From assembly GCA_018971725.1 (NCBI GenBank), contig JAGXAE010000002.1, positions 1 through 50,925 of the forward strand: a DNA stretch of 50,925 nt. Direction: 5' to 3'. The DNA comes from Pseudomonadota bacterium (GTDB lineage: Bacteria > Pseudomonadota > Alphaproteobacteria > Acetobacterales > Acetobacteraceae). This document shows, piece by piece, positions 6,751 to 29,198 of the stretch. How positions within the stretch are numbered: position 1 is the first letter of the stretch; every line of letters begins with the position of its first letter. The position numbers were made by a program, and so were the translations under genes. Below the pieces are notes generated by a model. That model saw only the letters and a list, made by a program, of their open reading frames with translations, had not been told where the DNA came from and made no database searches.

Positions 6751-7755
6751 TCACCCGGCGTTCATGTTCAGCTTAAGCTGCCGCGCCTCCAACCCCTGCC
6801 AGACAATTAGCACGGGCACCGCGATAACGAAATCCCGCGCCCGGCGAAGCAAGGAGAGAGACAGGGCGATATCCGGCGGGATGCCAAACAACCCGCCCAG
6901 CAGCGTGTAAGCGGCTTCCTGCACACCCACCCGGCCAGGGATGAAGAAGGCAAGCGCCATGATGGCATGCAGCATCGCCTCAATGCATACGGCGTCCAGC
7001 CAGGAGAGGTTCACGCCCAGTGCCTGAAAGCCGATGTAAGAGGCCGTGCCGGTGCCAAACCAACAAGCGAGATGAAACGATGCCGCCCAGGCGAGGCGAT
7101 GATGCTGGGTGTACATGCCGTCCAGCGCCTTTTGCAGCCGCTGCACGTTTTCCGCCGCCCCCTGCCCGGTTGTGCCGGCAATGCGCAGCGCCAGGCCGCG
7201 GAACAGCCTGGTGCCGGCACCGCGCTGCGCCACGATCAACCCCACCCCCAGCGCCACCGCAACGGCAAGCCCGATGGTGACTGGCAGCAGCAGGTCCGAC
7301 CCCGGCACCTTGCGCGAGAGAATGACAAGCCCGGTTCCGACGAACACAAGCTGGGCCAGGAATTCGGTGGTGATGTCACCCAAGGTGGAAGCAGCGGCAT
7401 CGGCCGTGGCCACCCCGCCCAGCGTCATGACCCGGGCGCCGATGACATAGCCGCCCACCTGCGAAAATGGCAGGAACTCGCCGGTGGCATCCCGCACCGC
7501 GCGGCCCCAGACACAGAGCAGGAACGAGCCTTTCTGGCGGGAGCGCAGCAGCATCCGCCAGCTTCCCCCCAGCCCCAGCAACAGTGCCAGCTGTGCGGCG
7601 ATATACATCGCCAAACCCGACGCGCTGACCGAGGTGAGCGCGTGAAGCACATCCCCCGCGCCGAAATAGATGACGAGACCGGTTATAACCGCCAGACCCG
7701 CCAGGGTTAACATGGCGGGGATAAGTTTGCCTTTGGCCGACAAGGAGATGCTCAA
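6751..7755 (-). CDS. hpnL: HpnL-like flippase-type membrane protein (lysylphosphatidylglycerol synthase TM-region family)
   Basis: Polytopic, PGRVGVQEAAYTLLGGLFGIPPDIALSLSLLRRARDFV motif of the UPF0104 family; next to hopanoid genes. Confidence 0.7.
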   Translation of the reverse strand: MSISLSAKGKLIPAMLTLAGLAVITGLVIYFGAGDVLHALTSVSASGLAMYIAAQLALLLGLGGSWRMLLRSRQKGSFLLCVWGRAVRDATGEFLPFSQVGGYVIGARVMTLGGVATADAAASTLGDITTEFLAQLVFVGTGLVILSRKVPGSDLLLPVTIGLAVAVALGVGLIVAQRGAGTRLFRGLALRIAGTTGQGAAENVQRLQKALDGMYTQHHRLAWAASFHLACWFGTGTASYIGFQALGVNLSWLDAVCIEAMLHAIMALAFFIPGRVGVQEAAYTLLGGLFGIPPDIALSLSLLRRARDFVIAVPVLIVWQGLEARQLKLNMNAG

Positions 7756-8705
7756 CGTCCCATGATGCGTGTCTTAAGGCGCAGAACGGCTAACCCGATA
7801 CGCCCCAAAGCTGGCATGGTGGTGGGGCGCTTCAAGCGCGAATCATATCCTGCCATGCGTCTTTTATCCTCTTCCAGGCAGATTGCCAAAAGCTGTGGCA
7901 GGTCCATCTCCTCGCTGATGGCCGTGGAGCCGTGCATGGTGAAGTTGGCGTCAGCGCCCTCCAGCCCGTCCACATCCTTGGCGATGCCGATGCGCTCGTA
8001 AATCAGGAACACCCACACGGCCCACACTTTCAGCTCGAACCATGGACGTTTCCACCATGTAAGCCTCGCGCGGTGCCAGGCCAGCCAGTTGGCGAAGAAC
8101 AGAATATGGCGACCCTCCTCCTGCACCACCGGCTCGAAGGTCTCCACCAGCTTATCCGGGAAATAGCCGGAGCGCTTGGCCATTTCGAACAGCCCATAGG
8201 CGAAGAAGCTGTCGATACATTCGGAAAACCCGGTAACGAGCCAGCCCCATTCGGCATCGTTGGGCAGGGTGTAAAAGGGTTCGGGCTGCATCGGGATGCC
8301 ATAGGCCGCGACAAGGCGGGAAAGCACGTCCTTATGCCGCGCCTCCTCACCGGCCATATGGAGCAGCGCCGCCCGCAATTCCGGCCGCGCCACGGTTTGC
8401 GAATAAAAGGTGATGCGCGCCGCGGCCTTTATCTCCGTCTGCACCGCGATATCCCAGATCGGTAGGGAAGTAATGCGCGTCAGCGTCTCCGAATCCAACA
8501 CCGGCCAGTCCAGCACGGCGGGCTTGTAGGGGTTGTAGGTGGCGTCCAGCAGGGCGGTGAACATGCGGTAATGCGCGTCCGAACCCGTTGGAATCGGGCC
8601 AGGTTCAAGAAACTCCCAATACCGGGCGCGACGATCGGCGGTGACAACATCCTCGTCATTTTCCGCGACCTCGGTTGGGGCAAGTGGAAGATCGTACATC
8701 TGCAT
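7752..8705 (-). CDS. Ferritin-like / diiron-carboxylate superfamily protein, function unknown
   Basis: Paired motifs TEIKAAARITFYSQ...GEEARH and ECIDSFFAYGLFEMAK...QEEGRH (two ExxH); start 8705 or 8699 preferred over 8786, which would overlap the hpnA 5' region; stop overlaps hpnL start. Confidence 0.75.
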   Translation of the reverse strand: MQMYDLPLAPTEVAENDEDVVTADRRARYWEFLEPGPIPTGSDAHYRMFTALLDATYNPYKPAVLDWPVLDSETLTRITSLPIWDIAVQTEIKAAARITFYSQTVARPELRAALLHMAGEEARHKDVLSRLVAAYGIPMQPEPFYTLPNDAEWGWLVTGFSECIDSFFAYGLFEMAKRSGYFPDKLVETFEPVVQEEGRHILFFANWLAWHRARLTWWKRPWFELKVWAVWVFLIYERIGIAKDVDGLEGADANFTMHGSTAISEEMDLPQLLAICLEEDKRRMAGYDSRLKRPTTMPALGRIGLAVLRLKTRIMGR

Positions 8706-8802
8706 CCTCAGAGTTGCGCCAAAAGCTGCAATGGGTTCTACAGCTTGTGCGCCGGCGGGTATATCGCCACGGCGGAATGGCAGCAAAGCACGGGGTATTG
8801 AA

Positions 8803-9798
8803 GTGGCGCAGGGCGATCTGGTGCTGGTGACGGGGGCAACCGGCTTTGTGGGCGCGGCGGTGGCAAGGGCGGCAAAAGCGGCGGGGTATCAGGTCCGGGT
8901 CACGGCACGGCGCGGCTCCAGCAGGCAGAATATCGCCAGCCTGGGCGCGGAGGTGGTGTTTCTGGACCTCGCGGAGCCCGAGAGCTTTGCCTCAGCGCTC
9001 TCCGGCTGCCGTTATCTACTGCATGTGGCCGCCGATTACCGGCTATGGGTGCCGGATGTGGCGGCCATGCGGCAGGTGAATATCGACGGCACGCTGGCCC
9101 TGCTGCACGCGGCCGAGAGGGCCGGGGTGGAACGCTCGGTCTATACCAGCTCTGTTGCCGCCTTGGGGCTTAAAGCGGATGGCACGCCCGCCGACGAGGC
9201 AACGCCGATCAAGCCCGAACACCATGTGGGCGCCTACAAGCTGAGCAAATACGATGCCGAGCAGGCGGTGCGCGCGCTTGCCAAGGAACAGGATATCGTC
9301 ATCGCCAACCCCTCCGCGCCGGTGGGGCCGGGCGACGTGAAACCAACCCCCACCGGGCAGATGGTGCTAGACGCCGCGCGGGGCAAAATGCCCGCTTACG
9401 TGGATACCGGGCTGAATGTGGTGCATGTGGACGATGTGGCGGCCGGGCATCTTCTGGCGTTGGAGAAAGGCCGCCGGGGCGAGGTTTATATTCTCGGCGG
9501 CGAGGATTTGATGCTGCGCGACCTGCTGGCCCTGGTGGCGGCGCAAAGCGGCCGCAAGGCGCCGGGGCTGCGCCTGCCGGTGGCGCCGCTGATGCCGCTG
9601 GCCTGGGTTATGGAGCGCATCGCCGAGCGCACGGGCAAAACCCCGCTGATGACGCCGGATATTCTTCACATGGCGCGGAAAAAGATGTTTTTCTCGTCGG
9701 AAAAGGCCAAAACCGAACTAGGCTATGCGCCCCGCCCCGCTGCACGGGCGGTGGAGGACGCGCTCATCTGGTTCCGCAAGGAAGGCATGCTCGCATGA
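8803..9798 (+). CDS. hpnA: Hopanoid-associated sugar epimerase
   Basis: GTG start at 8803; NAD-binding VLVTGATGFVGAAVARA; YKLSKYDAEQAV; first gene of hpnABCDE-shc. Confidence 0.9.
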   Translation: MAQGDLVLVTGATGFVGAAVARAAKAAGYQVRVTARRGSSRQNIASLGAEVVFLDLAEPESFASALSGCRYLLHVAADYRLWVPDVAAMRQVNIDGTLALLHAAERAGVERSVYTSSVAALGLKADGTPADEATPIKPEHHVGAYKLSKYDAEQAVRALAKEQDIVIANPSAPVGPGDVKPTPTGQMVLDAARGKMPAYVDTGLNVVHVDDVAAGHLLALEKGRRGEVYILGGEDLMLRDLLALVAAQSGRKAPGLRLPVAPLMPLAWVMERIAERTGKTPLMTPDILHMARKKMFFSSEKAKTELGYAPRPAARAVEDALIWFRKEGMLA

Positions 9799-10898
9799 TC
9801 CTGCTGCTCGCATTCGCCATCTGGCTGTATCTGGCCTTTTTCCATGGCCGGTTCTGGGCTTCAGCACCCGAGCTCGCCCCCGCCACACCGCTGGAGGCAC
9901 CGGAGGTGGACATCATCATCCCCGCGCGGGACGAGGTGGCAACCATCGCCCCGGTCATCGCCTCGCTGGTGGCGCAGGATTATCCCGGAACTTTCCGCGT
10001 GATCCTGGTGGACGACAACTCAACGGACGGCACCGCCGAAGCCGCCGGCACGCATGAGCGCCTGACGATCCTCACCGGGCAGGACAAACCAGCCGGCTGG
10101 TCCGGCAAGTTATGGGCGCTGAGCCAAGGTGTGGCGGCCAGCACCGCACCAGTGATTTTATTCGCGGACGCGGACATCACCCACGACCCGCGCCATCTCG
10201 CCACACTGGTGGCGAAGATGACCACGGACAGGCTGGAGATGGTCTCCGAAATGGTGCGGCTGAACTGCGCCTCCGAGCCGGAGAAACTTCTCATCCCCGC
10301 CTTCATCTATTTCTTCCAGATGCTCTACCCCTTCGCGAAGGTGAACGACCCGCGCGCCCGCGTGGCGGCGGCGGCCGGCGGCACGGTGCTGATCAAACGC
10401 TCCGCGCTGGAACGCATCGGCGGGCTGGAGGCGATGAAGGGCGCGTTGATCGACGACGTGACCCTGGCCACCAAAGTGAAGGCGACCGGGCCGGTCTATC
10501 TCGGCCATTCGGGTCTCGCCACCTCCATCCGCCCCTATCCGAAGGCGAAGGATATCTGGGACATGATCGCCCGCACCGCTTTCACCCAGTTGCGTTATTC
10601 GCTGGTCATCCTCGCCGGCACCATCATCGGGCTGGCACTGGTGTGGCTGGTTTTTCCCTTCGCCACGCTCTGTACCGGCTTTGGCTGGCGCGCGGCCTTG
10701 GGGCTGGCCATCTGGGCCATCGCGGCGCTCACCTACTTCCCAACGCTGGACCGCTATAAGGTGCATCGTGCCTATGCCATCGCCCTGCCCGGCATTGCCC
10801 TGTTCTATATGGCCGCCACCATCGGCTCGGCGGTGAATCACTGGCGCGGCACTGGCGCCAAATGGAAAAACCGCGCCTATGCCGGGGACAAGCCATGA
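9795..10898 (+). CDS. hpnB: Hopanoid biosynthesis-associated glycosyltransferase
   Basis: GT2 motif VDIIIPARDEVATIAPVIASLVAQDYPG...VDDNSTDGTA; C-terminal TM segments; operon position. Confidence 0.9.
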   Translation: MILLLAFAIWLYLAFFHGRFWASAPELAPATPLEAPEVDIIIPARDEVATIAPVIASLVAQDYPGTFRVILVDDNSTDGTAEAAGTHERLTILTGQDKPAGWSGKLWALSQGVAASTAPVILFADADITHDPRHLATLVAKMTTDRLEMVSEMVRLNCASEPEKLLIPAFIYFFQMLYPFAKVNDPRARVAAAAGGTVLIKRSALERIGGLEAMKGALIDDVTLATKVKATGPVYLGHSGLATSIRPYPKAKDIWDMIARTAFTQLRYSLVILAGTIIGLALVWLVFPFATLCTGFGWRAALGLAIWAIAALTYFPTLDRYKVHRAYAIALPGIALFYMAATIGSAVNHWRGTGAKWKNRAYAGDKP

Positions 10899-11764
10899 TC
10901 GCCAACGACAACACCTCCCCCACCCGCGCCAAGAGCGGCAAAAGCGTCGAGGCCTGGTCCGGCAAGGATAAGGGCGATGAGAATTTCCCCGTCGCCTCCC
11001 TGCTCATCGCCAAGCCACTGCGCGCCCGTGTGCATGCCTATTACGATTTCGCCCGCAATGCGGACGATATTTCAGACAGCGCCACCCTTTCCCCCGAGGA
11101 AAAGCTGGAGCGGCTGAATGCGATGGAAGTCGTGCTGACCGGCGCGCTGGACACGGGCAGCCCCAGCGCCACCAGGCTGCGCCAATCCCTGGCGGAGTCC
11201 GGCGTATCCAACATCCATGCCCGCGAATTGCTGACCGCCTTCCGCCAGGACGTGGTGAAACACCGCTATGAAAACTGGGGGGAGCTGATGCATTATTGCC
11301 GTTACTCCGCCGCCCCGGTGGGCCGCTATGTGCTGGATGTGCACGGCGAATCCCACGACACCTGGGCACCGTCGGACGCGCTGTGCGCCTCCTTGCAAGT
11401 GCTCAACCATTTGCAGGATTGCGCCAAGGATTTGCGCGACCTGGACCGCTGCTACGTGCCGCAGGACTGGTTACGAGAGGCCGGCCTGACCACGGACGAC
11501 ATCGCCCGGCCCGAGACCGTTCCCGCCCTGCGCACCGTGTTCGACAAGATGCTGGACGCCACGGAAACTCTCAACCGCACCGCCGCCGAGTTGCCCAGGC
11601 GCGTGAAATCCCGCCGGTTGCGGATTGAAACCGCCATTATCTGTGCGCTGGCCAACCGGCTCACCACCAAGCTGCGCCATGGCGACCCACTGGCGACCCG
11701 CGTGAAGCTCTCTAAGCTGGATGTGCTGGCCGCCACGTTATTGGGTTTAAGATACGTTCCATGA
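10895..11764 (+). CDS. hpnC: Squalene synthase HpnC
   Basis: YYDFARNADDISD, YCRYSAAPVGRYVLDVHGE, NHLQDCAKDLRDLDRCYVP; ATGA overlap with hpnB (ORF track start 10862 is less likely). Confidence 0.9.
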   Translation: MIANDNTSPTRAKSGKSVEAWSGKDKGDENFPVASLLIAKPLRARVHAYYDFARNADDISDSATLSPEEKLERLNAMEVVLTGALDTGSPSATRLRQSLAESGVSNIHARELLTAFRQDVVKHRYENWGELMHYCRYSAAPVGRYVLDVHGESHDTWAPSDALCASLQVLNHLQDCAKDLRDLDRCYVPQDWLREAGLTTDDIARPETVPALRTVFDKMLDATETLNRTAAELPRRVKSRRLRIETAIICALANRLTTKLRHGDPLATRVKLSKLDVLAATLLGLRYVP

Positions 11765-12606
11765 TCAGCTCCGACGACACCGCTTATGTCACCGCTTTGG
11801 TGAAAGCCTCCGGCACTTCCTTCTATCACGGCATGAAGATCCTGCCGCCGGAGCGGCGGGATGCGATGTATGCCATCTACGCTTTCTGCCGCGTGGTGGA
11901 CGACATTGCCGATGAGGAAGGCCGCGACTTCACAGCCAAGCAGGCGGAACTGGAAGCCTGGCGCCAGCGCGTCGCCGCCATGTATGAGCGCGGCGAAGCC
12001 GAGGACGCGATAACGCGGGCCTTGCTGGTGGTAATTCAGGATTACCATGTCCGCCAGGAGGATTTCATCGCCATCATCGACGGCATGGAGATGGATGCGG
12101 GAGAACCGATCATCGCCCCGAAGCTGGCGGAACTGGACCTGTATTGCGACCGCGTGGCCTCCGCTGTGGGCCGGCTTTCTGTGCGGGTGTTCGGGGATTC
12201 TTCTCCTGCGGCGGACGAGGTGGCGCACGCGCTAGGGCGTGGGCTGCAACTCACCAACATATTGCGCGACGTGGCGGAAGATGCGGAACGCGGACGCATC
12301 TATCTGCCCACCGAGTTTCTGGCGGAAGCGGGAGTGACGGCGGAGCCTTCGCGTATCCTCACAGCCCCCGCCTTGCCGCAAGTATGTGCCCGCGTGGCGG
12401 AGATGGCGGAGCAGAATTTCGCCCGCGCCCACGCAGCCATGGCCCATTGCGACGCCAAAGCCATGCGCCCGGCCCAGATGATGGAAGCCAGCTACCGCCC
12501 ACTGCTGGATATTTTGCGGCGGCGGAATTTCGATTACGCGCAGGGCCGTGTCTCGCTGCCGAAATGGAAGAAGCTGATGCTGGCGGCGCGGCTGCTGGCG
12601 GGATGA
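11761..12606 (+). CDS. hpnD: Presqualene diphosphate synthase HpnD
   Basis: SFYHGMKILPPERRDAMYAIYAFCRVVDDIADEEG, LQLTNILRDVAEDAERGRIYLP. Confidence 0.93.
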   Translation: MISSDDTAYVTALVKASGTSFYHGMKILPPERRDAMYAIYAFCRVVDDIADEEGRDFTAKQAELEAWRQRVAAMYERGEAEDAITRALLVVIQDYHVRQEDFIAIIDGMEMDAGEPIIAPKLAELDLYCDRVASAVGRLSVRVFGDSSPAADEVAHALGRGLQLTNILRDVAEDAERGRIYLPTEFLAEAGVTAEPSRILTAPALPQVCARVAEMAEQNFARAHAAMAHCDAKAMRPAQMMEASYRPLLDILRRRNFDYAQGRVSLPKWKKLMLAARLLAG

Positions 12607-12616
12607 GGGAAAGGGC

Positions 12617-13798
12617 ATGAGCGTCCATGTCATCGGCGCGGGACTCGCCGGGCTTTCCGCCGCCTGCCGCCTCGTGGAGTTGGGGCACGAGGTTGTGCTG
12701 TTTGAAGCCACCCCCAATGCCGGTGGGCGCGCGCGCTCTTATTTCGACAAGCAACTTGGCTGCCGGATTGATAACGGCAACCATCTGCTGCTCTCGGGCA
12801 ATCTTTCCGCGCTGAATTATCTGGACCGTATCGGGGCACGGGAGACGCTGACCGGCCCGGCGGCGCCGATTTTTCCATTCCGCGACGTGAGTACCGGAGA
12901 AGCCTGGACGCTGCGTCTCAACCAGGGGCATTTTCCCTGGTGGGTTTTCAAGCCCAGTCACCGCGTGCCGGGAACACGGTTCTGGAATTATCTGGCGCTG
13001 AAAAAACTGCTCAAGGCCAGGCCGGGGGATCTGGTGGAGCCTCTGGCGGGCGGCGGCGCGCTCTATGCGAAGCTGCTGGAACCGCTGGCCATCGCCGCGC
13101 TGAACACCATGCCGGACATCGCCGCCGCCCAGCCCCTGGGCGCGGTGCTGGCGGAAACGGTGGAGCGCGGCGGTTTTGCCGCCCTGCCCCGCTGGGCGCG
13201 AATCGGGCTTTCTGAAAGCTTCGTGGATCCGGCTTTGAACTGGCTGCGCCAGCGCGGCGTGGAGATAAGATTTGGCGAGCGCGTAGGCGAACTTCGCCCG
13301 GGCCAAACCACCATCCTGGCCGTGCCACCCTGGGCAGCGAAGGAGCTGATGCCCGAACTCACCGTGCCGGACGAATTCGAATCCATCTGCAACCTGCACT
13401 TCAAGGCGCAAATGCCCCCCGGCGAGGCTGGATTTTACGGGCTGTTGGGCGGCATGGCGGAATGGGTGTTTCCGCGCGAGGAGATTATCTCCGTCACCAT
13501 TTCCTCTGCCAACCGCTATGCGCATCTCGGCCAGGAGGCTATTGCCGGGCAAGTCTGGGCGGAGCTTTCCAAAACCTTTGGCCTGCCGCAAGCCCAACCT
13601 CAATGCCGGGTGCTGTGGGAAAAACGCGCCACTTTTGCCTGCACGCCGGCGCAATTGGCCCGGCGGCCCGGCCCCAGAAGCCAGCGCCCCGGCGTGGTTT
13701 TGGCGGGGGACTGGACGGATACCGGCCTGCCCGCGACCATTGAGGGCGCCATCCGCTCCGGCGAGGCGGCGGTGGCGGCATTGCCACAGCCCGCCTGA
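12617..13798 (+). CDS. hpnE: Hydroxysqualene dehydroxylase HpnE
   Basis: FAD-binding VHVIGAGLAGLSAACRLVELGHEVVLFEATPNAGGRARS; LAGDWTDTGLPATIEGAIRSGEAAV. Confidence 0.93.
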   Translation: MSVHVIGAGLAGLSAACRLVELGHEVVLFEATPNAGGRARSYFDKQLGCRIDNGNHLLLSGNLSALNYLDRIGARETLTGPAAPIFPFRDVSTGEAWTLRLNQGHFPWWVFKPSHRVPGTRFWNYLALKKLLKARPGDLVEPLAGGGALYAKLLEPLAIAALNTMPDIAAAQPLGAVLAETVERGGFAALPRWARIGLSESFVDPALNWLRQRGVEIRFGERVGELRPGQTTILAVPPWAAKELMPELTVPDEFESICNLHFKAQMPPGEAGFYGLLGGMAEWVFPREEIISVTISSANRYAHLGQEAIAGQVWAELSKTFGLPQAQPQCRVLWEKRATFACTPAQLARRPGPRSQRPGVVLAGDWTDTGLPATIEGAIRSGEAAVAALPQPA

Positions 13799-13856: not shown

Positions 13857-15773
13857 ATGATGAACGCAGTACTGGATCATTCGATCGAGCTGGCCCGCGC
13901 CTCGCTGACGGCTGAGCAACGCACGGACGGGCATTATTGCTACGAGCTGGAAGCGGACGCCACCATTCCAGCCGAATATGTACTGCTGGAGCATTATCTC
14001 GACCGGATCGACGATGCTCTGCAGGCCAAGATCGGCGTGTATCTGCGCCGCATCCAGGGCGATTACGAAACCTGCCTGGGCGGCTGGCCGCTGTTTCATG
14101 GCGGCAAACTGGACCTTTCATGCTCGGTGAAGGCTTATTTCGCGCTGAAGGCGCTGGGCGATTCGCCTGATGCGCCGCATATGGCGCGGGCCCGCGAGGC
14201 GATACTGGCCGCCGGCGGGGCAGAGCGCGCGAACGTGTTCACCCGGTTCCAAATGGCCCTGTTCGGCGCCGTGCCCTGGGAAGCATGCCCGGTGATCCCC
14301 ATCGAGGCCGTGCTGATGCCGGAGTGGTTTCCCTTCACCATGCGCAAGGTTTCCTATTGGTCGCGCACGGTGATGGTGCCGCTGATGTTCCTGGCCAGCC
14401 GCAAGCCGCTGGCCCGCAACCCGCGCAATATCCGCATCGACGAGCTGTTCCGCACCAAGCCTTCCGAGGTGAAGGACTGGATTCGCGGACCTTATAAATC
14501 GGCCTGGGGCCCAGTGTTCAAGGTGCTGGACGATGTGCTGCGCGTGGCCGAGCCCTTCTTCCCCAAGGGTTCCCGCGCCAAGGCCGAGCAAAAGGCTCGG
14601 GACTGGATTATCGAGCGGCTGAACGGCGAGGACGGGCTGGGTGCCATTTACCCCGCCATGGCGAACGCCACGATGATGTTCGATTACCTGGGCGATAAAG
14701 AGCATTTCGACATCGCCTGGAATTCCGTACGCAAGCTGTTGGTGGTGAAGGAGGACGAGGCTTACTGCCAGCCTTGCCTCTCCCCGGTATGGGACACGGC
14801 CTTGGCCGGGCATGCTTTGGCGGAAGCCGGTGAAGCCCAGGCGGTGGCCGAGGCATGTGACTGGCTGATCCCGCGCCAGGAACTGGACGTGGTGGGAGAC
14901 TGGGCGGACAACACCCCCGGCACCCGCCCCGGCGGCTGGGCCTTCCAGTACAACAACCCGCATTACCCGGATGTGGACGATACCGCCGTGGCCGCCATGC
15001 TGCTGCACCGCGCGGGCGATCCCAAATATGCCGAAGCCATCTCCCGCGCGCGGGAATGGGTGATCGGCATGCAGTCCACCAACGGCGCCTGGGGCGCGTT
15101 CGATATCAATAACGACCGGCAGTACCTCAACCACATTCCCTTCGCGGACCATGGCGCGCTGCTGGACCCGCCGACGGAAGATGTTTCCGCCCGCTGCATC
15201 TCCTTCCTCGCCCAATTAGGGCATGAGGAAGACCGGCCCGCGATCGAGCGCGGCATCCAGTATCTACGCGAGACGCAGAAGCCGGATGGCTCCTGGTTTG
15301 GCCGCTGGGGCACGAATTACATCTACGGCACCTGGTCTGTGCTTTGCGCGCTGAACGCGGCGGGTGTTGCGCATGACGACCCGATGGTGACGAAGGCGAC
15401 ATCCTGGCTGCTGGCCAAGCAACGCGAAGATGGCGGCTGGGGCGAGGATAATGAGAGCTACGGCGATGCACCCGCTGGCGAATTCCATGGCGTTGCGGCG
15501 CAAAGCCTGCCGAGCCAGACCGCCTGGGCGGTGCTGGGGCTGATGGCGGCGGGGCTGGCGGACCATGACGCGGTGAAGCGCGGCATCACCTATCTGCAGG
15601 CCGCGCAGGGCGAAGATGGAAGCTGGACGGAGGCGCCCTATAACGCGGTCGGCTTCCCGCGCGTGTTCTACTTAAAATACCACGGCTACCCGCGCTTCTT
15701 CCCGCTGCTGGCACTGAGCCGGTACAAGGGCCTGCTGGCCAGCAATGACCGGGCGGTGAAGTTCGGATTTTAA
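13857..15773 (+). CDS. shc: Squalene-hopene cyclase
   Basis: QW-motif repeats and catalytic DVDDTA; start MMNAVLDHSIELARASL at 13857 within ORF 13518..15773. Confidence 0.95.
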   Translation: MMNAVLDHSIELARASLTAEQRTDGHYCYELEADATIPAEYVLLEHYLDRIDDALQAKIGVYLRRIQGDYETCLGGWPLFHGGKLDLSCSVKAYFALKALGDSPDAPHMARAREAILAAGGAERANVFTRFQMALFGAVPWEACPVIPIEAVLMPEWFPFTMRKVSYWSRTVMVPLMFLASRKPLARNPRNIRIDELFRTKPSEVKDWIRGPYKSAWGPVFKVLDDVLRVAEPFFPKGSRAKAEQKARDWIIERLNGEDGLGAIYPAMANATMMFDYLGDKEHFDIAWNSVRKLLVVKEDEAYCQPCLSPVWDTALAGHALAEAGEAQAVAEACDWLIPRQELDVVGDWADNTPGTRPGGWAFQYNNPHYPDVDDTAVAAMLLHRAGDPKYAEAISRAREWVIGMQSTNGAWGAFDINNDRQYLNHIPFADHGALLDPPTEDVSARCISFLAQLGHEEDRPAIERGIQYLRETQKPDGSWFGRWGTNYIYGTWSVLCALNAAGVAHDDPMVTKATSWLLAKQREDGGWGEDNESYGDAPAGEFHGVAAQSLPSQTAWAVLGLMAAGLADHDAVKRGITYLQAAQGEDGSWTEAPYNAVGFPRVFYLKYHGYPRFFPLLALSRYKGLLASNDRAVKFGF

Positions 15774-16149: not shown

Positions 16150-16881
16150 TTAAGCCGGGACTTTGGCCAAAGCTTCGAGAACTCTTGGCGCCAGTTCCTT
16201 TTGGCAGATCAGCAGATCCGGCAGATAGGGGTCGGCGTTATTATAGGCCAGGGCTGAACCGTCAGCGCGAGTGGCGTGCAGCCCTGCGGCCAGAGCCACA
16301 GCGCCGGGGGCGCAATTATCCCACTCATATTGCCCGCCCGTGTGCAGATAAATATCCGCCTCTCCGCGCAGCACCGCCATTGCCTTCGCTCCGGCGGAGC
16401 CCATCGGCACCAGCTCGGCGTTCAGCGCCTCGGCCACGGCCAAAGCCTCCTTCGCGGGGCGGGTACGGCTGACCAGCACGCGCAGCTTTTGCGGCAAGGG
16501 CGGCAAAGCTTGAGGCTCGGAAAGAAACACTTGCCCCGCACCCGGCAACGCCACCGCGCCGATGGCGGGCTTGCCACCGATGGAAAGCGCGATATGCACC
16601 GCCCAATCCGTGCGGCCCTCGCCATATTCGCGGGTGCCGTCCAGCGGATCGACGATCCAGACGCGTTCAGCGGAAAGACGCGCCGCGCTGTCTTTCTCTT
16701 CCTCTGAAAGGATGGCGTCATCCGGCCGGTTTTCCCGCAGCGCGGTCATGATGAACTCATTGGCCACGCGGTCCCCCGCCTTGCCGAGCGCCTTGCCCTC
16801 GAACAAACCGGTGGCGCGCAAATCCAGAAGGATCTTGCCCGCACCTTCGGCAATGATCTTCGCCAGTTCCAGATCGGTCAC
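16150..16881 (-). CDS. cysQ: 3'(2'),5'-bisphosphate nucleotidase CysQ
   Basis: ILSEEEKD, WIVDPLDGTREY, YEWDNCAPGAVALAAG inositol-phosphatase superfamily motifs; next to cysNC. Confidence 0.9.
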   Translation of the reverse strand: MTDLELAKIIAEGAGKILLDLRATGLFEGKALGKAGDRVANEFIMTALRENRPDDAILSEEEKDSAARLSAERVWIVDPLDGTREYGEGRTDWAVHIALSIGGKPAIGAVALPGAGQVFLSEPQALPPLPQKLRVLVSRTRPAKEALAVAEALNAELVPMGSAGAKAMAVLRGEADIYLHTGGQYEWDNCAPGAVALAAGLHATRADGSALAYNNADPYLPDLLICQKELAPRVLEALAKVPA

Positions 16882-18788
16882 GGAATCAGCCTTTCAATGA
16901 TGAGGTCCGCCGCCTGCTCCGGCGTCATCTTCGCGGTGTTGATGTGAATTTCAGGGTCATATGGCGGCTCGTAAGGACTGTCGATGCCGGTGAAATTCTT
17001 CAGCTCGCCGGAACGGGCTTTTTTATAAAGCCCCTTCACGTCGCGGCGTTCGGCTTCTTCCAAGGCTGTGTCTATGAAGATTTCCACGAACTCGCCGGGC
17101 GCCATCATCTTGCGCACCATCTCGCGCTCCGACCGGAAGGGCGAGATGAAGGCGGTGATGACGATGAGGCCGGCATCGCTCATCAGCTTCGCCACCTCGC
17201 CCACGCGGCGGATGTTCTCGATCCGGTCCGCCTCGGTAAAGCCGAGATCCTTGTTCAGCCCATGGCGGACATTATCGCCATCCAGCAGGAAGGTGTGGCG
17301 GTTCATCCGCACCAGCTTCTTTTCCACCAGATTGGCGATGGTGGATTTGCCGGCGCCGGACAAGCCCGTGAACCAAAGCACGGCGGGCTTCTGATTCTTC
17401 AGGCCCGCATGAACCTCACGCGAAACATCCAGCGCCTGCCAATGCACATTCTGCGACCGGCGCAGCGAGAAGCTGAGCATGCCCGCCGCCACCGTGGCGT
17501 TTGTCATCTTGTCGATGACGATAAAGCCGCCCAAAGCGTGGTTCTTCTCGTATGGCTCGAAGGCGACCGGCCGGTCCGTGGTGATGTTCGCAACGCCGAT
17601 GGCGTTCAGCTCCAGCGTCTTCGCCGCCGCATGTTCCAGCGTGTTGACGTTGATCTGATATTTCGGCGCCTGGATGGAGGCGGACACGGTTTGCGTGCCA
17701 AGCTTGATCCAATAGGCGCGGCCCGGCGTCATTGCCTCATCGGACATCCAGACGATCGTGGCCTCGAACTGATCCGCCACCTGCACCGGCGCATCCGCCG
17801 GGGTGATGACATCGCCGCGTGAGCAATCGATCTCATCGGCGAAGCACAAAGTGACAGACTGCCCCGCGACCGCCTGCTGCAAATCGCCGTCCATGGTGAC
17901 AATGCGCGAAACGGTTGAGGTTTTGCCGGAGGGCAGAACCCGAACTTCATCGCCCGGCTTCACCACGCCACTGGCGATCTGCCCAGCGAACCCACGGAAG
18001 TCCAGATTCGGACGGTTCACCCATTGCACCGGCAGGCGCAACGGCTTGGCCTGGTCGGCGGTCACGTCCAGCTCCACCGTTTCCAAAAACTCTACTAACG
18101 GCACACCATTATACCAGGGCGTGTTTTCCGAGCGCGTGGTGATGTTATCGCCCGCATAGCCGGAGATGGGCATAGGGGTGAAATGCTTGATGCCGATGCC
18201 TTCCGCAAACTGCCGGTATTCGGCCACGATGGCGTCGTACTTGTCCTGGTCGTAACCGATCAGATCCATCTTGTTCACCGCCAGCACGATGTGGCGGATA
18301 CCGATAAGATGAGCGAGGTAGGAATGGCGGCGCGTCTGCGTCAGCACGCCTTTACGCGCATCGATAAGAATCACCGCGAGATCGGCGGTGGAGGCTCCGG
18401 TGACCATGTTGCGGGTGTATTGCTCATGGCCGGGCGTGTCGGCGACGATGAATTTACGCGTCTCTGTGGCGAAGAAACGATACGCCACGTCGATGGTGAT
18501 GCCCTGCTCGCGCTCGGCGGCGAGCCCATCAACCAGCAGCGCGAAATCGATATTCTGCCCCTGCGTGCCAACCTTCTTGGAATCGGCTTCCAAAGCGGCA
18601 AGCTGATCCTCGAAGATCATCTTTGAATCGTAAAGCAGCCGGCCTATGAGGGTGGATTTACCGTCATCCACCGAGCCGCAGGTAATGAAGCGCAGCAGCG
18701 ATTTATGCTGATGCTTCAACAGATAGGCGTCGATGTCCTGGGTGATCAGCGAATCGACCCTGTAGGAGCTTTCCTGGATCTCGCTCAT
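16878..18788 (-). CDS. cysNC: Bifunctional sulfate adenylyltransferase subunit 1 / adenylylsulfate kinase
   Basis: N-terminal GTPase CGSVDDGKSTLIGRLL, DTPGHEQY; C-terminal APS kinase GLSGAGKSTIANLVEKKL, LDGDNVRHGLNKDLGF. Confidence 0.95.
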   Translation of the reverse strand: MSEIQESSYRVDSLITQDIDAYLLKHQHKSLLRFITCGSVDDGKSTLIGRLLYDSKMIFEDQLAALEADSKKVGTQGQNIDFALLVDGLAAEREQGITIDVAYRFFATETRKFIVADTPGHEQYTRNMVTGASTADLAVILIDARKGVLTQTRRHSYLAHLIGIRHIVLAVNKMDLIGYDQDKYDAIVAEYRQFAEGIGIKHFTPMPISGYAGDNITTRSENTPWYNGVPLVEFLETVELDVTADQAKPLRLPVQWVNRPNLDFRGFAGQIASGVVKPGDEVRVLPSGKTSTVSRIVTMDGDLQQAVAGQSVTLCFADEIDCSRGDVITPADAPVQVADQFEATIVWMSDEAMTPGRAYWIKLGTQTVSASIQAPKYQINVNTLEHAAAKTLELNAIGVANITTDRPVAFEPYEKNHALGGFIVIDKMTNATVAAGMLSFSLRRSQNVHWQALDVSREVHAGLKNQKPAVLWFTGLSGAGKSTIANLVEKKLVRMNRHTFLLDGDNVRHGLNKDLGFTEADRIENIRRVGEVAKLMSDAGLIVITAFISPFRSEREMVRKMMAPGEFVEIFIDTALEEAERRDVKGLYKKARSGELKNFTGIDSPYEPPYDPEIHINTAKMTPEQAADLIIERLIP

Positions 18789-25636: not shown

Positions 25637-26551
25637 ATGAGTGAGACTGCGCGCGGGGATGGTGGGGCGGCCGCGCGCCAAATAAAAATCATCGGAATCA
25701 TCGGCGCGGGGTTGATGGGAAATGGCATCGCCCATGCCGCGCTGATTTCCGGTTTTGATGTCATCCTCGTGGATGCGTTCGAGGCAGCTTTGGCCAAGGG
25801 CCTGGCAACCATGGAAAAGAACATGGACCGCCAGGTGGCCAAAGGCAGCCTCACGGCAGAGAACAAGGCGGCGGCCCTTGGCCGCCTCACCTCCTCCACC
25901 GATTACCATGCGCTGAAAAACGCCGACCTCGTTATAGAGGCCGTGCCGGAAAAGCTGGAGATCAAAGAGAGCATCTATAAAGAACTCAAAGACGTGCTGG
26001 CGCCAGAGACGATCCTGGCCTCCAACACATCTTCTCTCTCTATCACCAAACTCGCGGCACTTTCCGGCCGGCCAGATAAATTCATCGGGCTGCATTTCTT
26101 CAACCCGGTGCCGATGATGAAACTGGTGGAGATCATTCGTGGCCTCGCCACCTCGGATGAGACGTATCAAACCGCCGAAACCCTCGCGGAGAAGCTCAAC
26201 AAAACCGCTGCCACCGCGCAGGACGCACCTGGCTTCATCGTCAACCGCCTGCTCTGCCCGATGCTGAACGAGGCGATCTTCGCTTTGGGAGAAGGCGTCG
26301 CGGATGCGGCGTCTATAGACGATGCGATGAAACTTGGCGCCAATCACCCGATGGGCCCGCTCACACTCGCGGATTTCATAGGGCTGGACACGCTGCTTTC
26401 CATCATGCGGGTGCTGCATGAGGAACTGGGCGAGGACAAATACCGCCCCGCGCCCTTGCTGGTGAAATACGTGAATGCGGGCTGGCTGGGGCGCAAATCC
26501 GGCCGGGGCTTTTACGATTATAGTGCAAACCCGCCGAAGCCGGCGCGCTAA
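25637..26551 (+). CDS. 3-hydroxybutyryl-CoA dehydrogenase
   Basis: [52 protein letters not shown]. Confidence 0.93.
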
Positions 26552-28095
26552 TCCAGCACAGCGCCAGCTTCCCGCGGCCCAAGTGCCGCTTTGCGTTGCG
26601 GGCCACGCATCAGCAGCAGGCATAAAGCCGCCGGCAAAGTGGCGAGAAACATGAATTTATAATCGTCCATGTAGGCGATAATCTGCGCCTGCGTCGTCAC
26701 CATGGAATCAAGCCGTGCCGCACCGCCTTGGGTGGCCGGATTCCAATACCGGCTAACCGTCCCGCCCACCTGCAACGCGCGCGAAAATGGCGTGATATGC
26801 GTCATCAGATTGGCATGCATGTAAATGGTCATGTGGTCGAGCAAGGCCGTGGTCACGGAAATGCCAATGGCACTGCCAACATTGCGCAACAAGCTGAGCA
26901 GCGCCGTGCCCTGGGTGCGCAAAACGGGCTCCAACGTGTAGAATGCCACCACCTGCAACGGCACGAACACAAAGCCGAGCCCCGCCCCCTGCACCACAAT
27001 GGTCAGCACCATGTAGTCCTCGCCGGTCGCGGGCGTCCAACCTTCCTGCATATAAAGCGAGAGCCCCAGCAGCATATAGCCAAACAACATCAACAGCCTT
27101 GGGTCGATGCGATTGGTCAGACGCCCTGCGACCATCATGGCGAACATGGTGCCAAAACCGCGCGGCGCCATCACCAGCCCCGCCGTCGCCACCGGATAAT
27201 TGTCGAGATTTTCCAGATACGGCGCCAGCAGCGCAGAGGACGCCAGTAGCACCATGCCAACCAGGAACATGGTGATCAGGCCCGCGACAAAATTACGATC
27301 GAAGAAAATCTCACGTGGAATGAAGGTTCTCTGCGCGGTGAACATATGCACGAGGAAAAGATAGAACCCGACCCCCGCCAGCACGAAGGCGGCGATTATG
27401 GTGTTGGAACTCAGCCAGTCGAGCTGCTCACCCCGGTCCAGCGCCAATTGCAGCGCCCCCAGCCCGAGTGACAGCACGGCAAAGCCCGTCCAGTCGAACC
27501 TGCTTGCCTCACGCTGCTTGCCCCCCGGCATCAACGCCGCCAGCCCCAGCACCGCTGCAATGCCGAACGGCAAATTCACAAAGAACACATAGCGCCAGTT
27601 GAAATCATCGGTGAGGTAGCCGCCCAGGGTTGGCCCCAAAATCGGCCCCACCATCACCCCCATGCCCCAGATGGCCATAGCCGCTCCACGTTGCTCGGCC
27701 GGGTAGATGTCCAGCATCGTCGATTGCGAAAGCGGCACCAGCGCCGCGCCAAACGCACCTTGCAACAGCCGGTAGAGCACCATTTCGGTCAAGCTCTGTG
27801 CAATGCCGCACAGCATGGAAGTGACCGTGAACCCCACCAGGCAGGTGATGAAAAGCTGCTTGGTGCCAAACCGCGCCGCCAGCCAGCCCACAGGCGCGGT
27901 CATGATCGCGGCGGTCACCACATAGGAGGTCAGCACCCAGGTGATCTGATCGTAAGAGGCCGAAAGCGAGCCTTGCATGTAAGGCAGCGCGACATTGGCA
28001 ATGGTGGAATCCAGCGCCTGCATCAGCGTCGCGATCATCAGGCAGACGGTGATGATGCCCCTGTTCGGAACCTCCGTGGTGACGCCTTCGGCCAT
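26548..28095 (-). CDS. MFS multidrug transporter, DHA2/EmrB type
   Basis: 14-TM pattern; [50 protein letters not shown]. Confidence 0.92.
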
Positions 28096-29198
28096 CAGAA
28101 CAGATCCGAAAGATGCCGCTTATGATGCGTGTCGATGGAGATTTCCGTGCTCATCCCGGCCCGCAACGGCAGGTCCTTCGGCCCGGAGATGATCTTGATC
28201 CGCAACGGAATACGCTGCACCACCTTCACCCAGTTGCCGGAGGAATTCTGCGCTGGCAGAACCGAGAATTCGGAACCCGAAACCGGCGCGATGCTTTCCA
28301 CCTCGCCCTTCCAGTTCTGACCGGGATAAGCATCCACCGAAATGTTCACGCTCTGGCCGGGGCGCACCCAGGTCAACTGGTCCTCCTTCGGCTGGGCGGT
28401 GACATAAACATCAGTGTCGGAGACCAGGCCAAAAGCGGCGGTGCCCGCGGCCAGCATCATCCCGGGCTGCAACTGCTCAACCTCTGTGACTGTGCCCGAG
28501 AAAGGCGCTCGCACAACGCTATGGCGCTGGTTCAGCAACGCCTGGTTAAGAGCGGCCAAGGCGTTCAGATATTCCGGCGTCTGCGCCGGGTCGATATCCG
28601 GGTTGCCGTTCAGTTTCACCAATTGCTGCCCCGCAGCCGCCTGCATCTGCTGCAACTTCGCCTGGTCGCCCTGAAGGGCGAAACGGGCATCATCATATTG
28701 CGCCCTGGTGGCACCGCCCGTGTTCACCACGGCGGCATAACGGGCCAGATCAGCCTTATCTTTCTCCACAAGCGCTTGTTGCTCGGCAATCTGCGCCTGG
28801 GCCATCTTATAGCCGTGCTTGGCGGCATCGATGTCCTGCACCGCCTGGGCAAGCTTGGCACGGGCGGAATCCACCGCAATGGCAAAACCGTGCTGGCCCA
28901 GCGCGAAAAGCGGCTGCCCAGCCGTAACATGCTGATTATCCTGGACATAAACCGTGCCGACTAACCCACTCACATCGGTGGAAAGCGAAACCTTTGCTGC
29001 ATCCACGTAGGAATCGTCAGTGTAAACATACCGCCCGCCGAACAGCCAGTAGAGCAAGCACGCCAGCGCCACCAGCACCACCCCGCCGAGCATAAGCACC
29101 GCCCTGAGCGGGGATTTACGGCGGGCTGGTGCGGCAGCCGTGCTGGCGGCAGGGCGTTGCCCCGCCTGCTCCCGCGCCAGGGTATTGGATTGGGACAT
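28095..29198 (-). CDS. HlyD/EmrA-type periplasmic adaptor
   Basis: N-terminal TM; YVDAAKVSLSTDVSGLVGTVYVQDNQHVTAGQPLF; VVRAPFSGTVTEVEQLQPGMML. Confidence 0.92.
   Translation of the reverse strand: MSQSNTLAREQAGQRPAASTAAAPARRKSPLRAVLMLGGVVLVALACLLYWLFGGRYVYTDDSYVDAAKVSLSTDVSGLVGTVYVQDNQHVTAGQPLFALGQHGFAIAVDSARAKLAQAVQDIDAAKHGYKMAQAQIAEQQALVEKDKADLARYAAVVNTGGATRAQYDDARFALQGDQAKLQQMQAAAGQQLVKLNGNPDIDPAQTPEYLNALAALNQALLNQRHSVVRAPFSGTVTEVEQLQPGMMLAAGTAAFGLVSDTDVYVTAQPKEDQLTWVRPGQSVNISVDAYPGQNWKGEVESIAPVSGSEFSVLPAQNSSGNWVKVVQRIPLRIKIISGPKDLPLRAGMSTEISIDTHHKRHLSDLF

Follow-up and report, generated by a model that had tools for sequence, protein, structure and literature searches.

Hopanoids are sterol-like bacterial lipids, and optional genes that tailor them are known. 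HpnP and HpnR, both SAM radical enzymes, methylate ring A, while oxidative tailoring has been proposed for HpnX and for other 'sterol desaturase' candidates for hopanoid unsaturation, all of the sterol-desaturase family, the candidate from Methylovulum being an integral-membrane protein of the histidine-box type (PMC12583986, PMC6460317). A 2025 survey of 54 alphaproteobacteria measured unsaturated hopanoids and hopanoids with pentol or hexol side chains, and stated that no genes are known for either; the neighborhood of hpn clusters was checked for candidates and none was reported for pentol and hexol (PMC12583986). The pentol and hexol hopanoids serve as biomarkers. Pentol is mostly found as a cyclitol ether, which is built by the side-chain genes hpnI-J-K, and its makers also include Nostoc and type I methanotrophs. 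The gene described here, diA (type-A hopanoid-associated diiron protein), resembles hpnP and hpnR in being an optional tailoring gene, and HpnX and the other candidates in its proposed oxidative role. It differs from all of them in encoding a predicted diiron protein of the carboxylate type, folded as a four-helix bundle.

The window analyzed is a stretch of 50,925 nucleotides from an Acetobacteraceae genome (contig JAGXAE010000002.1). The features of the hopanoid locus are listed below.

6751..7755, minus strand: hpnL (TIGR03476, 247.6 bits against a cut-off of 195.65), its start overlapping the diA stop
7752..8705, minus strand: diA, 317 aa, with putative ligands E91, E121, H124, E162, E197 and H200
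8706..8802, no strand: divergent intergenic region between diA and hpnA, 97 bp, read from the sequence
8803..9798, plus strand: hpnA (TIGR03466), with a GTG start at 8803
9795..10898, plus strand: hpnB (TIGR03469)
10862..11764, plus strand: hpnC (TIGR03464)
11761..12606, plus strand: hpnD (TIGR03465)
12617..13798, plus strand: hpnE (TIGR03467)
13860..15773, plus strand: shc, squalene-hopene cyclase (TIGR01507, 743 bits), start approximate

The diA gene is thus divergent from a run of hpnA-B-C-D-E-shc. The initial annotation had described an overlap of the diA stop with the start of an HpnL-like gene and a divergence from hpnA across about 100 bp; the TIGR03476 match bears out the first and the measured distance (8706-8802) the second. 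The overlap indicates that diA and hpnL are probably co-transcribed. A scan of 8706-8802 for promoters and terminators gave no match, and no sigma-70 consensus was found there. Just 3' of shc, on the opposite strand (window 16150-18788), sequence reading revealed genes for a CysQ-like phosphatase and a fused sulfate adenylyltransferase/APS kinase. An efflux pair of the EmrA/EmrB type, matching at subfamily level, is located at 26548-29198 on the minus strand.

The diA ORF runs from 8705 to 7752, has an ATG start and is present in one copy in its genome. Two helix-pair motifs had been claimed for its product and both were found, TEIKAAARITFYSQ...GEEARH (E91, E121xxH124) and ECID...QEEGRH (E162, E197xxH200), which give the complete diiron ligand motif E, ExxH, E, ExxH. 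In an alignment, E91, E120, E121, H124, E162, E196, E197 and H200 are identical in 86/86 relatives, the distant paralogue B included. The invariance of these eight residues shows that the diA motifs are not due to chance. The AlphaFold model, made from 51 sequences, is a four-helix bundle (pLDDT 88.8, pTM 0.89) whose predicted long helices (84-102, 108-134, 151-179 and 184-214) carry one motif element each, and the six ligands would be expected to converge on a single metal site. The top Foldseek matches of the model are diiron R2 proteins, R2-like ligand-binding oxidases and stearoyl-ACP desaturases, all weak (E >1e-3). At the level of the model, membership in the ferritin-like/R2-like diiron carboxylate superfamily is clear, while a close relative is not. 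Among the curated NCBIfam models, no family matched diA at E <= 1. The Pfam models Rubrerythrin (PF02915, 21.7 bits, cut-off 22.8), AurF (PF11583, 17.3 bits, cut-off 29.6) and COQ7 (PF03232, 15.2 bits, cut-off 23.5) all scored under their cut-offs, and a sequence search of the PDB returned no solved chain at a significant E-value. That diA represents a family of hopanoid-associated diiron enzymes without a curated name is well supported.

The distribution of diA follows that of the hopanoid pathway. In a draw of 385 alphaproteobacterial genomes (class draw), shc was present in 107 (28% background) and diA in 27. The cyclase was found in 25/27 carriers of diA and in 82/358 non-carriers (p = 3e-13); collapsed to families, the figures were 13/14 and 40/159 (p = 7e-7). 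The two carriers lacking shc are genomes of 74% and 92% completeness. One family of 201 genomes showed the same association: diA occurs in five, all of them among the 19 with shc (5/5 vs 14/196, p = 4e-6). This family probably corresponds to the sphingomonads, as judged by one 16S gene, whose first 104 bases match Sphingomonas at 96% identity, and by the presence of a Zymomonas-like genus. The latter, which has two shc copies and genomes of 2.1 Mb and which we take to be Zymomonas, carries no diA. In the family of the window itself, diA is found in 105/195 genomes. It is absent from three genomes of the genus to which the window belongs, two of which are 99-100% complete, so loss is possible within the genus. 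Named replicons with a cyclase and no diA, in a search that covered these replicons only, were those of Azospirillum brasilense, Roseomonas marmotae and Methylorubrum extorquens CM4, and plasmids of Sinorhizobium and Mycetohabitans. Some genomes hold two type-A copies. In one, the copies have equal scores and lie 13.5 kb apart (G668:C1:1003718-1004581 and 1017224-1018087), probably after a recent duplication, and in Novacetimonas maltaceti and a Paraburkholderia MAG they have diverged and possibly differ in regiochemistry.

A wide occurrence away from hopanoid genes, which the initial annotation had named as evidence against its proposal, was therefore not observed, shc accompanying diA in 25/27 and 5/5 carriers. 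The proposal of an oxidative enzyme of the diiron-carboxylate type tied to hopanoids is supported by the motif and fold as well as by the co-occurrence with shc, and diA is very probably a gene of the hopanoid pathway. These distributions also bear on another explanation, that diA encodes a general stress or iron protein, ferritin-like or rubrerythrin-like, which lies near hpn genes and does not act on hopanoids. The weak similarity to Rubrerythrin and other ferritin-like Pfam families agrees with it, as does the absence of hpn genes within 10 kb of diA in Acetobacter, the examined Burkholderia loci and some others. Nothing about function could be read from the genes around such copies in Acetobacter (PqqE, a diaminopimelate-type aminotransferase and ClpP), in Burkholderia or in Rhodoblastus. 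However, diA is nearly confined to shc-positive genomes even in the unlinked lineages, and three proteobacterial classes contain loci where it is linked to hpn genes, so we regard a general protein of this kind as very improbable.

The linkage, taken as one or more hpn genes no further than 10 kb away, was seen at 39 of the 80 named diA loci, in the alpha, beta and gamma classes. Several gene orders were found. In Acidocella, hpnA is divergent from diA-hpnL; in Dyella, Nevskia, Azotobacter and Azomonas the order is hpnI-J-K-L-diA; in Cupriavidus diA adjoins hpnB; and one alphaproteobacterial family has hpnI-J-K-diA-(B)-L-A-B-C-D-E-shc. Four sphingomonad genomes have diA precisely between hpnK and hpnL, and one more has it immediately following hpnK. 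Three other sphingomonad hpn clusters have equal gene order and no diA between hpnK and hpnL. Such presence or absence at one fixed position is what would be expected of a gene for optional tailoring.

The neighboring genes also inform on the substrate. Squalene, one of the substrates suggested initially, is not favored, because diA clusters with the side-chain genes hpnI-J-K and because roughly three in four shc-positive genomes of the class draw, and so most genomes that make squalene and hopene, lack it; a squalene-modifying role was set aside on these grounds. HpnJ was found in 16/29 diA carriers and in 13/51 other shc-positive genomes (p = 0.015). This is an enrichment and not a rule, which indicates that diA can do without the cyclitol ether as a substrate, and the idea that diA requires the cyclitol-ether module was dropped. 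At one locus (L171, genome G090), type A adjoins hpnA and type B lies beyond hpnN, in a genome with no HpnJ above the cut-off; A and B can thus occur without the module.

The type B paralogue is about 30-36% identical to type A and keeps all the ligands. All genomes found to carry B also have A, 7/7 in the class draw and 27/27 in a family draw, the two draws sharing one genome, and B usually adjoins A directly in tandem. In Acetobacteraceae bacterium KSS8 (G358, the genome that also holds locus L074), A and B are fused in one protein of 650 aa (L026:526-2475, minus strand). No B was seen among the 201 sphingomonad-like genomes. This absence matches the restriction of hexols, which are rare and have been reported only in Rhodospirillales. 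Type B may act after A, as the next hydroxylase and perhaps giving hexol, or it may be a partner of A. A more specific scheme, which we put forward tentatively as the less probable outcome, is that A and B are the two missing side-chain hydroxylases, A leading to bacteriohopanepentol (C-31) and B to bacteriohopanehexol (C-30). The restriction of B to genomes with A, and the fusion of the two in one genome, would then be accounted for.

Lipid data are available for some of the carriers. A scan of named genomes found diA in Acidocella aminolytica, Rhodopila globiformis and Acetobacter pasteurianus, for which the survey reports unsaturated hopanoids at 3%, 0% and 82%, and pentol plus hexol at 21%, 19% and 19%, respectively (PMC12583986 Table 3). 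The 48 hopanoid producers of the survey also include Sphingomonas mali (pentol 90%), Nitrospirillum amazonense (pentol 44%, unsaturated 0), Enhydrobacter aerosaccus (77% and 1%), Novosphingobium rosa (pentol 0) and Afipia broomeae (pentol 0, unsaturated 43%). Pentol or hexol is therefore present in 3/3 phenotyped carriers and unsaturation is absent or low in 2/3, in a comparison of three species of which one has both products. Pentol being constant across these carriers while unsaturation varies, we counted the comparison in favor of a role in pentol formation. Further points on the same side are that no gene is known for pentol or hexol; that Burkholderia cenocepacia, which makes pentol derivatives as well as unsaturated hopanoids, carries diA; and that the Zymomonas-like genus does not, a recent lipidomics-based model giving only tetrol derivatives for Zymomonas. 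In addition, diA was seen in Azotobacter beijerinckii, and Azotobacter vinelandii is a cited pentol producer.

The same data were used to weigh whether diA desaturates the hopanoid rings at delta-6 or delta-11, with B making the other double bond. Desaturases are known among the diiron carboxylate proteins, one of them (stearoyl-ACP desaturase) appears in the Foldseek results, acetic acid bacteria and Burkholderia, makers of unsaturated hopanoids, are among the carriers, and the gene for hopanoid unsaturation is not known (PMC12583986). Nevertheless, the low unsaturation in Rhodopila globiformis and Acidocella aminolytica is against it. In some sphingomonad genomes, diA is found within the hpn operon, yet the tested species have 0-1% unsaturation, with the pentol cyclitol ether in six of them (PMC12583986); if diA were the desaturase and the tested strains are taken as a random draw, zero unsaturation in eight sphingomonads has a chance of about 5%. 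The clustering with hpnI-J-K also points to the side chain rather than to the rings. We consider ring desaturation unlikely. Of the earlier suggestion of a desaturase or hydroxylase, the hydroxylase is thus preferred, and the desaturase fits less well, two carriers having 0-3% unsaturated and 19-21% pentol/hexol hopanoids.

Our preferred reading, to which we give an even chance, is that diA encodes an O2-dependent diiron hydroxylase acting on the side chain to form bacteriohopanepentol. As a monooxygenase of the ferritin/R2-like type, it would tailor extended hopanoids at a stage when the side chain is complete. Most probably it would hydroxylate the unactivated side-chain CH2 adjoining the tetrol (C-31), converting bacteriohopanetetrol, often as the cyclitol ether, to bacteriohopanepentol. 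O2 would be activated by two irons held in E91/E121/H124/E162/E197/H200, and the electrons would come from a redox partner.

Three observations count against the formation of pentol by diA. Pentol was found in 6/8 tested hopanoid-making sphingomonads, while diA is present in 5/16 shc-positive genomes of the family other than the Zymomonas-like ones; at this rate, six or more of eight would be expected with a chance of about 1%, if the tested strains are a random draw. Rhodoblastus carries diA, and no pentol is reported by the survey for its order (PMC12583986). Finally, Rhodopila sp. LVNP, which was grown anoxically and aerobically, contains the pentol cyclitol ether, the culture used for LC-MS being unstated; should pentol be formed there under strict anoxia, an O2-dependent enzyme would be excluded as the sole route. 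Alternatively, diA might be a hopanoid-linked oxidative enzyme with another role, such as oxidizing the side chain to give a 32-oxo or 31-ene intermediate, modifying C-34, C-35 or the cyclitol, or serving together with HpnL as a carrier or in quality control. The co-occurrence and synteny with hopanoid genes, though strong, leave the reaction undefined, an oxo/enol route to pentol was proposed by the 2025 survey (PMC12583986), and HpnA, HpnB and HpnL likewise have no known function. Against such a role, among the few phenotypes compared none other than pentol is common to the phenotyped carriers, and we find it rather improbable. Situated inside the hpn clusters of several lineages, diA is a concrete candidate for a pentol/hexol gene. 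Should the enzyme prove to depend on O2, pentol and hexol hopanoids might also come to serve as indicators of oxygen use.

Among known proteins, the AurF, COQ7 and Rubrerythrin families of Pfam share local similarity with diA at the metal-binding helices, all under their curated cut-offs. R2lox and the ribonucleotide reductase R2 (NrdF) are, like diA, four-helix bundles with paired carboxylate/histidine motifs, and they are its best structural neighbors in Foldseek (NrdF, E 4e-3, TM about 0.42; R2lox, TM 0.53/0.58, rmsd 6.0). They have no significant sequence match to diA, which differs from them in its hopanoid operon context. The soluble stearoyl-ACP desaturase is a lipid-modifying diiron carboxylate enzyme and a weak Foldseek match (2uw1, E 0.011, TM 0.38). 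It has no sequence match to diA, for which the phenotype pattern favors hydroxylation.
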